The notes under the pieces were generated by a model. The model searched no databases. It saw only the letters and a program-made list of their open reading frames with translations, and was not told where the DNA came from. Of a stretch of 64,000 nucleotides of DNA, positions 41,317 through 44,050 are shown piece by piece (position 1 is the stretch's first letter; the number at the start of each line of letters is the position of its first letter). A program made the position numbers and the translations under genes. Source of the stretch: Bifidobacterium olomucense. GTDB lineage: Bacteria; Actinomycetota; Actinomycetes; Actinomycetales; Bifidobacteriaceae. The stretch is taken from contig NZ_JAAIIG010000001.1 of the NCBI RefSeq assembly GCF_012932375.1, positions 310,001 through 374,000 of the forward strand. The letters are read 5' to 3'.

Positions 41317-43119
41317 ATGACTTCCAATACCCTTCGTATGTCTACTTTGTTCCTGCGCACGTTGCGCGAAGACCCGGCGGACGCAGATGTTGATTCCGCC
41401 AAGCTGCTGCAGCGCGCCGGCTACATCCGCAAGGCCGCTCCCGGCATCTGGACCTGGCTGCCGCTCGGTCTGCGCGTGCTCAACAAGATCGAGGCCATCA
41501 TCCGCGAAGAGATGGCCGGCATTGGTGCCCAGGAAGTGCACTTCCCGGCTCTGCTGCCGCGCGAGCCCTATGAGGCCACCCACCGCTGGGAGGAGTACGG
41601 CGACAACATCTTCCGTCTGAAGGACCGTCACCAGGCTGATTACCTGCTGGCTCCTACCCACGAGGAAATGTTCACCCTGCTGGTCAAGGACATGTACTCG
41701 TCCTACAAGGACCTGCCGGTGACCTTGTACCAGATTCAGACCAAGTACCGTGACGAGTTCCGCCCGCGCGCCGGCCTGATTCGCGGCCGTGAGTTCGTGA
41801 TGAAGGACGCCTACTCCTTCAGCATCGACGAAGAAGGTCTGAAGAAGGCCTACTACGACGAGCGCGGTGCCTATGAGCGCGTTTTCCAGCGTCTCGATCT
41901 GAAGTATGTGCCGGTGTTCGCCATGTCCGGACCGATGGGCGGCTCCGCTTCCGAGGAGTTCCTGGCTCCGATGCCCATCGGCGAGGATACTTTCGCGCTC
42001 GCTCCTTCCGGCAAGGCCTGGAACGTCGAGGCGCTGCACACGCCGGAACTGCCGGAAATCGATGCTTCCAATACCCCGGCTGCCACCAAGGAAAGCACGC
42101 CGGATGCCAAGACCATCGACAAGATGATCGAGCGCGCCAACGCCGATCACCCGCGTGGAGATGGCCGTGCATGGGAGGCGTCCGACATCCTCAAGAACGT
42201 GGCCATCACCATCAAGCATGCCGAGGATGAGGACCACGATGAGCCGTGGCGTGAAGTGATCGTGGTCGGTGTTCCCGGCGATCGCACGGTGGATATGAAG
42301 CGTCTGGAAGCCCAGTTCGCCCCCGCCGAAATCGAAGAGGCCACCGAAGATGACCTCAAGCAGCATCCGGAACTGGTGCTCGGATACATCGGACCCATGG
42401 TGCTTGGCCCGCAGGCCGAGGCCGCCGGCGTGAAGCACCCGGCTCGTTACTTCGTGGACGCCCACGTGGTCAAGGGCTCTGCATGGTTCACCGGTGCCGA
42501 TGAGCATGAGGTGGACTACTACAACCTGGTGTATGGTCGTGACTTCGAAGCCGACGGCGTGGTTGAGGCCGTTGAGGTTCGCCATGGCGATATGAGCCCG
42601 GACGGTTCCGGCCCGCTGAGCTTCGAACGCGGTGTGGAGATCGGCCAGGTCTTCCAGCTGGGTCTCAAGTACTCCAAGGCTCTGGACCTGAAGGTTCTGG
42701 ACCAGAACGGCAAGGCTGTGCCGGTGTGGATGGGTTGCTACGGCATCGGTGTTTCCCGCGTGCTCGCCTGCATCGCCGAGACCCATCACGATGATGCCGG
42801 CCTGGCTTGGCCGAAGGTCATTGCCCCGGCTCAGGTGCATGTGGTGGCCACCGGTAAGGACGAAAAGGCCTTCGAAGGTGCCGAGAAGCTGGTCGAAGCA
42901 CTGGAGGCTAAGGGCGTCGAGGTGATTTACGACGACCGCAAGAAGGTTTCCCCGGGCGTGAAGTTCAAGGATGCCGAGCTCATCGGTGTGCCGACCATCG
43001 CCGTGGTGGGCCGTGATTTCGTCAACGACGGCACGATTGAAATCCGTGACCGCAATGGCGAGAACAAGGTCGCCGTGCCTGCCGATCAGGCCGTCGAGAC
43101 GTTGCTTGAGCGGCTGTAA
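41317..43119 (+). CDS. proS: Prolyl-tRNA synthetase
   Basis: A 600-residue class II synthetase of the bacterial long type. Motif 1 lies near [17 protein letters not shown], motif 2 is in [19 protein letters not shown], and motif 3 with GIGVSRVLA near residue 480. The editing insert domain (about 220-405) between motifs 2 and 3 is present, so mischarged Ala-tRNA can be cleared. The C-terminal anticodon-binding domain (about 500-600) starts [14 protein letters not shown]. The open frame runs back to 41221, but the family start [19 protein letters not shown] is at 41317. No ribosome binding site; TATCTT lies seven bases before ATG, consistent with a leaderless transcript. Confidence 0.94.
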
Positions 43120-43152
43120 TAAGTTGTGAATCGCACGATTCGACATCGATAG

Positions 43153-43182
43153 CGCCACCCTGTGACACAGGGTGGCGTTTTT
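43153..43182 (+). terminator. proS terminator
   Basis: CGCCACCCT pairs with AGGGTGGCG over a short GTGACAC loop and is followed by TTTTT (43178-43182). Confidence 0.9.
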
Positions 43183-43221: not shown

Positions 43222-43275
43222 TGTGGATAACCGAAAGTTATCCACACGGCCTTAAACCCCGTCACAGTATCCACA
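43222..43275. promoter_or_regulatory. DnaA-box cluster between proS and the SSB gene
   Basis: TGTGGATAA (43222-43230) and TTATCCACA (43238-43246) are perfect DnaA boxes in inverted orientation, seven bases apart; extended to ten bases they form a perfect stem with a five-base loop. GTATCCACA at 43267-43275 is a third box with one mismatch. A GGTGTT-rich stretch precedes them (43196-43221). No dnaA or dnaN is nearby, so a regulatory or DnaA-titrating site is more likely than an origin. Confidence 0.7.
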
Positions 43276-43414
43276 TTTGCCGGTTGCCCTTGTGCGGCGA
43301 GTGTCACGTATTGCACAGTGATCATACCGCCGATCACCTCGTTCGCAAGGATGCGCGGTTGATCGGTGGTCCAGACGTATACGCGCTTGTGGGCGCAACA
43401 GGAAAGGACTCATC

Positions 43415-44050
43415 ATGGCAAACCAGCAAGCAGCAGTAACGGTAACCGGCTTTGTGGCCAGTGATTTGGTCAAAGGAGGCAAAGGCGACTTTACGGTGCT
43501 GACTTTCCGCATGGGCAGTACGCGCAGTCGGCTGAACCCGAATACCAGACAATGGGAGGAATTCGGTACCGCGTGGCTGACGGTCAAAGCGTTTCGATCC
43601 TTGGCCAATAATGCCTTGCAATCGATACGGCGAGGAGACCGGATTATCGTGGTCGGGGTATTGAACACTGAACAATGGAACACCGAACAAGGGGAGTTGC
43701 GCAGCAGGACCATTCTTGAAGCGACCAATATCGGTCATGATCTGACGTTCGGCACTACGAATCTCACAAAAACGCAGCGTGCCAATAGCGGAAACGCTTC
43801 GGGATCGGGGAATGCTGGCACTGGTGCTGCAGGTGCTGGCAATTCACCTTCAGGCGGAGGCGCTCAAGATCCCGCATCCGGTGTTGTTGCGGCATCGACG
43901 CCAACGCCGCCGGTCGAGCTCGGCGATGCCGGCGTGCAGTGTGAACCAAGTGGCTCGCAGCCGTTACCTGCCGATGTGGTTGACGGATCCGACCAGCTTG
44001 CCATGCAGCAATCCTATGCTGATGGTTTCACTGAGGAACCGGAGATGTGA
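43415..44050 (+). CDS. Single-stranded DNA-binding protein paralogue
   Basis: A 211-residue SSB-like protein. The OB fold spans about 1-115 (VTVTGFVASDLVKGG, TVLTFRMGSTRSR, WLTVKAFRSLANNALQSIRRGDRIIVVGVL). The C-terminal tail is Gly/Ala/Ser/Pro-rich and ends GFTEEPEM, lacking the conserved DDDIPF-type acidic tip that recruits repair partners. The missing tip marks it as a secondary SSB, used perhaps in competence, recombination or plasmid/phage contexts. GGAAAGGA precedes ATG. It lies just downstream of a DnaA-box cluster. Confidence 0.8.
   Translation: MANQQAAVTVTGFVASDLVKGGKGDFTVLTFRMGSTRSRLNPNTRQWEEFGTAWLTVKAFRSLANNALQSIRRGDRIIVVGVLNTEQWNTEQGELRSRTILEATNIGHDLTFGTTNLTKTQRANSGNASGSGNAGTGAAGAGNSPSGGGAQDPASGVVAASTPTPPVELGDAGVQCEPSGSQPLPADVVDGSDQLAMQQSYADGFTEEPEM

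Follow-up and report, generated by a model that had tools for sequence, protein, structure and literature searches.

The region upstream of ssb2, a gene for an SSB paralogue in the 64,000-nucleotide stretch of Bifidobacterium olomucense DNA analysed here (the window), is on balance best explained as the control region of a competence-type SSB in a natural-transformation regulon of the Bifidobacteriaceae, with a putative activator at -55 and DnaA at boxes further upstream. The sites, their conservation, their fixed geometry, the target genes that they have in common and the match of box variants to the DnaA boxes of the origin can each be read directly from the genomes compared. The wider proposal has an even chance of being right: that natural transformation in the family has DnaA as a direct co-regulator, and that composite promoters made of a -55 site and a DnaA box tie the uptake of DNA, the protection of ssDNA and recombination to the state of replication.

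In the window the boxes sit between the proS terminator and the gene of the SSB paralogue, and the features of the locus are as follows:

41317 to 43119, plus strand: proS, prolyl-tRNA synthetase, the upstream neighbour (open reading frame list; Pfam tRNA-synt_2b, HGTP_anticodon and tRNA_edit).
43152 to 43182, plus strand: hairpin resembling an intrinsic terminator, GCGCCACCCTGTG-A-CACAGGGTGGCGTTTTT, which closes proS (from the sequence).
43222 to 43246, no strand: inverted pair TGTGGATAAC-CGAAA-GTTATCCACA, in which a perfect 10-bp stem with the loop CGAAA is possible (from the sequence).
43222 to 43230, minus strand: DnaA box 1, exact TTATCCACA (reading TGTGGATAA on the plus strand), conserved in many Bifidobacterium genomes.
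43238 to 43246, plus strand: DnaA box 2, exact TTATCCACA, from the sequence and its conservation.
43267 to 43275, plus strand: the 'third box', GTATCCACA, with one mismatch, within a conserved block at 43261-43277; reread here as the -55 activator site, a variant of CTGGAWCCACAT / CATTCGACCACAT.
43290 to 43295, plus strand: predicted -35, TTGTGC, common to the yraN-comM promoter (TTGTGC-N18-CACAGT).
43314 to 43319, plus strand: predicted -10, CACAGT (CATAGT in many relatives).
43326, plus strand: predicted transcription start, the first base of ACCGCC, placed from the -10 spacing and the conserved hairpin that begins there.
43326 to 43370, plus strand: 5' leader hairpin with arms at 43326-43336 (ACCGCCGATCA) and 43360-43370 (TGATCGGTGGT), seen from compensatory changes between species.
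43401 to 43408, plus strand: Shine-Dalgarno-like GGAAAGGA (from the sequence).
43415 to 44050, plus strand: ssb2, an SSB paralogue without the usual acidic/aromatic tail, C-terminus GFTEEPEM (open reading frame list; Pfam SSB, E 1.5e-12).

The first-pass annotation had described an inverted pair with a 7-base gap and a perfect 10-base stem, which the sequence bears out, the gap being 43231-43237. It was right about the pair of exact boxes but not about their facing each other, as the arrows of boxes 1 and 2 are divergent and point away from each other, and the third box that it listed is present but carries a mismatch. The next gene does encode an SSB paralogue, as it had stated, both from the Pfam match and from a second SSB elsewhere in the genome, at G000:C3:40385, which has the usual acidic tail (...GGDDNDPEF). 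The window genome is close to B. scaligerum (L001), the SSB being 93% identical, and the block at 43261-43277 is kept in B. scaligerum, reuteri, myosotis, callitrichidarum and miconisargentati.

Conservation among species, put forward earlier as a check on the boxes, was counted within 350 bp upstream of each ssb2 orthologue and compared with shuffled sequence. A box with at most one mismatch is kept in 73 of 90 Bifidobacterium genomes (shuffle mean 5.5), an exact box in 52 (shuffle mean 0.2) and an inverted box pair in 47 (shuffle mean 0.0), and 14 of 20 genomes from other genera of the family have a box before ssb2 against a shuffle mean of 0.9; the genomes are related, hence the counts are not independent, though the ssb2 promoters are otherwise much diverged. 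Across the whole genome exact TTATCCACA occurs 52 times and the reversed control pattern 10 times. The inverted pair at 7-bp spacing is unique to the ssb2 locus genome-wide, even allowing two mismatches, and box pairs with this spacing elsewhere in the genus precede yraN-comM operons (L146, L164, L165).

Reading outward from isolated TTATCCACA sites in the same genome uncovered a second motif, AAGCTGGAACCACAT. At many of its targets the CCACA of this motif is 54-55 bp from the start codon, as it is in genome G126, where the motif begins 61-62 bp before the start codon; this distance points to leaderless messages with the site at -55. It is 55 bp at yraN. In the ssb2 promoter the third box has its CCACA starting at 43271, 55 bp before 43326; this base opens the conserved leader hairpin and lies the usual 6-7 bases past the -10. 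The spacing matches that of the related promoters and makes a -55 activator site the best reading of the third box. The two exact consensus boxes, which lie 80-104 bp ahead of the predicted start, are best read as additional sites further upstream. The CCACA of box 2 begins 84 bp before that start; in sister genera an exact box precedes the activator motif at a comparable distance from it, 27-30 bp.

The hairpin is predicted to stand at the very start of the ssb2 message. Among 24 distinct sequences pairs 3-8 change type yet stay paired in nearly all, with arm variants across the genus such as ACCGCC..GGCGGT and ACTGCGGC..GCTGCAGT; hairpin sequences were kept if at least five pairs formed, so part of this covariation is due to selection, pairs 6-8 being unaffected. 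Strict anchors picked up the leader in 40 of 90 genomes, and a search with 43326-43370 gave no Rfam match.

The -55 motif recurs in front of a recognisable set of genes. In sister genera CATTCGACCACA occupies the place of the third box in the ssb2 promoter, and in one of them, g5, this 12-mer reaches 26 copies per genome (reversed control 0), heading ssb2, yraN-comM, comEA, recA, Tad-pilus/cpaB-like, FtsK-like, M23 peptidase and comF-like genes, among others. A DnaA box lies within 65 bp upstream of 10 of 24 CATTCGACCACA sites in G126 and of 0 of 48 control windows. The window genome has its own lineage-specific form, CTGGAACCACA, of the same family as CATTCGACCACA. There the motif AAGCTGGAACCACA is found at 17 sites (0-1 mismatch), 15 of which have an exact TTATCCACA within 125 bp where about 0.07 would be expected from 52 boxes in 2.98 Mb; in 8 of the 15 the offset from the motif is identical. 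The two sites without an exact box (L261, L264) have TTATGCACA nearby, another of the oriC types. The 17 motif sites head comEA (beside comEC), recA, one gene each of the CpaB/RcpC-like pilus, FtsK-like, M23 peptidase and AAA/DUF4143 types, and several members of a protein family about 320 residues long with no Pfam match. The yraN-comM-dprA promoter is laid out like that of ssb2, with inverted boxes, CTGGATCCACAT and TTGTGC-N18-CACAGT (dprA and the recA of this genome were recognised from sequence and not by profile). The composite TGTGNATAA-N12-GAACCACAT is present in 14 of 112 genomes, with up to 8 copies and no control matches. The uptake and recombination genes comEA, recA, yraN-comM-dprA, the pilus gene and ssb2 have a common cis site in this genome and in sister genera, and the -55 motif would define a natural-transformation regulon that includes recA, comEA-comEC, yraN-comM-dprA, Tad-pilus genes and ssb2.

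Several further observations concern the reach of the motif. CATTCGACCACA also stands before clpX, topA, valS and a WXG100 (type VII secretion) gene in G126 (L244, L253, L178, L248), and the g5 regulon may include more than transformation genes. The protein family of about 320 residues has multiple copies (L199, L204, L208, L213, L217), each with a competence-type promoter or a DnaA box; the copies scanned gave no Pfam match, and a further copy, L200, has a weak restriction-endonuclease-like match; these are possibly DNA-processing or defence proteins expressed with competence. In 17 of 90 Bifidobacterium species, and in g5 genomes such as G130, the -55 site is kept with no DnaA box nearby, so that the DnaA part of the arrangement is not general. 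Bifidobacterium species that have no DnaA boxes before ssb2 (L058, L059, L064, L041, L106, L107) carry a site of the TCCGACCACA or TTCGACCACA type at -55, which suggests that this type is the ancestral activator motif within the genus.

In the model that we propose, a putative activator would bind the site whose CCACA begins 55 bp before the transcription start, the third box in the case of ssb2, and would switch the regulon on from there. DnaA would bind box 2 (-84) and the inverted box 1 (about -104 to -96) and, from between -70 and -105, would modulate the activator, either helping it or blocking it until free or ATP-bound DnaA changes; a helping and a hindering role fit the sequence equally. 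The genes for DNA uptake and recombination would in this way respond to the state of replication, and it is plausible that free DnaA reports that state, such that these genes respond to replication stress. We infer the existence of the activator, DnaA as the binder, the sign of its effect and the competence of the bacteria themselves from the arrangement of the sites and genes.

That DnaA binds the upstream boxes is fairly likely. Seven DnaA-box types are on record for the oriC of B. longum (PMC2430713), and 72 of the 94 upstream boxes at ssb2 belong to one of them; at the most 3' site the corresponding count is 29 of 69. The ssb2 locus does not figure in the available passages of that paper. 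The same competence regulon could instead be served by one non-DnaA activator bound at all the CCACA sites, the upstream TTATCCACA merely resembling a DnaA box. CCACA(T) is common to the -55 site and the DnaA box, so that both could be targets of a single protein; CCACA cores are often separated by close to a whole number of helical turns (10, 30 bp), and the second site of Gardnerella-like genomes, TTAACCACA, is intermediate between the two types. However, TTATCCACA is unchanged between genera whose -55 motifs differ (CATTCGACCACA, CTGGAACCACA), the variants of the upstream box track the DnaA-box types of the origin, the orientation of the box relative to the -55 site is variable, and DnaA, which is present, should bind a perfect box. 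A single activator would therefore seem rather unlikely, although it is the foremost of the alternatives.

Two other candidates were rejected. A DnaA paralogue as the -55 activator was set aside, there being a single DnaA match in the genome. Two LuxR-type response-regulator genes with TTATCCACA near or in them (L206, L215) were discounted as a sign of autoregulation, since the box falls within their coding sequence and there encodes Val-Asp-Asn.

DnaA control of ssb, as the first-pass annotation had proposed, is compatible with the evidence and forms part of the model with two kinds of site; what that proposal missed was the competence regulon, the better reading of the third box as a -55 activator site and the recurrence of the arrangement at many genes. 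A version in which DnaA controls the SSB for housekeeping replication or repair, with the link to competence incidental, is improbable. SSB is a replication protein, and further boxes of this genome precede dnaN and a DnaB-like gene and adjoin parAB. Against this, the canonical SSB gene (G000:C3:40385) lacks any DnaA box, even allowing one mismatch, in 2.4 kb of surrounding sequence, and the -55 site and layout at ssb2 are common to comEA, yraN-comM-dprA and recA and not to replication genes generally.

The earlier annotation had also offered a DnaA reservoir or reactivation locus like datA or DARS, and a non-coding box cluster that titrates or reactivates DnaA is now a very improbable account of the element. 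Three boxes are indeed close together, clustered away from oriC as in E. coli datA, DARS1 and DARS2, and in most complete genomes they lie about half a replichore from dnaA, recalling the conserved positions of the E. coli loci (PMC5010248). The element, however, is at a fixed distance upstream of a promoter, its arrangement is repeated at about 15-20 promoters of this genome, and species that keep the promoter and its -55 site can lose the boxes. The core of DARS has three DnaA boxes, I-III; the ssb2 locus has three box-like sites, the third of which, with its one mismatch, is better matched to the -55 activator site. The E. coli loci are non-coding reactivation or inactivation loci with IHF/Fis sites, whereas the ssb2 element is a promoter element found at many genes.

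A replication origin at ssb2, which the earlier annotation had named as fatal to its reading, was rejected. In this genome dnaA is on contig C11 and dnaN on contig C38, with box clusters at each, and in 15 single-contig relatives ssb2 lies at 0.45-0.79 of the half-genome from dnaA. Other box clusters occur in this genome. Four exact DnaA boxes lie directly upstream of a parA-like gene near dnaA (L118, G000:C11:11308-11482). A very dense cluster of about 16 box-like sites (L117, G000:C38:81000-81400) adjoins a CrgA-like gene and has inverted box pairs at the same position in other species (L153, L156); it is probably a second part of the origin region. Six boxes (0-1 mismatch) are clustered some 175-280 bp ahead of a gene that, going by its sequence alone, encodes a DnaB-like replicative helicase (L121, G000:C3:70300-70405).

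That the box-like sequences arose by chance, as their unremarkable count within the window taken alone would allow (5 TTWTNCACA with 2.3 expected, 5 being reached in 8 of 100 shuffles), is already refuted by conservation, and the regulon statistics speak against it as well, so that its probability is negligible.

Competence regulons are known in other phyla and, if the preferred reading with an activator at -55 and DnaA upstream is correct, this would to our knowledge be the first with a cis code described in the Bifidobacteriaceae. In the literature search neither this regulon nor a link of DnaA to ssb or to competence was found described for bifidobacteria, and the literature found does not demonstrate DNA uptake and recombination by bifidobacteria. 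Competence genes have been noted in Gardnerella (PMC2928729). With defined sites, a fixed geometry and a named list of targets the regulator should be findable and the link to DnaA is directly testable. If true, a DnaA-mediated link between DNA uptake and replication would be a new regulatory idea, and making bifidobacteria naturally competent, should that prove possible, would change genetic work on these hard-to-transform gut bacteria.

DnaA is a known transcription factor, acting at box-bearing promoters such as those of dnaA and nrdAB in E. coli and those of the B. subtilis DnaA regulon. Like ssb2, these have exact consensus boxes just upstream of the promoter of a gene of DNA metabolism; at ssb2, where the role of DnaA is putative, the target set is instead a transformation regulon and there is a second conserved site at -55. 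Among the Actinomycetota, transformation of Micrococcus luteus uses comEA/comEC and a Tad/Flp pilus according to the available passages of three papers (PMC4322843, PMC8467076, PMC12849477), and comEA-comEC and Tad pilus genes are on that basis common to it and to bifidobacteria. The same passages mention no link to DnaA boxes, and one of the papers states that the control of competence upstream of the com genes in Actinomycetota is unidentified (PMC12849477). A loose parallel to the model is found in B. subtilis, where DnaA co-localises with a second regulator, Rok, which as a repressor of comK also acts on competence (PMC11841835). There DnaA needs Rok in order to bind at those places, and the regions bound have no DnaA boxes; in bifidobacteria perfect boxes are found at the structural competence genes themselves.
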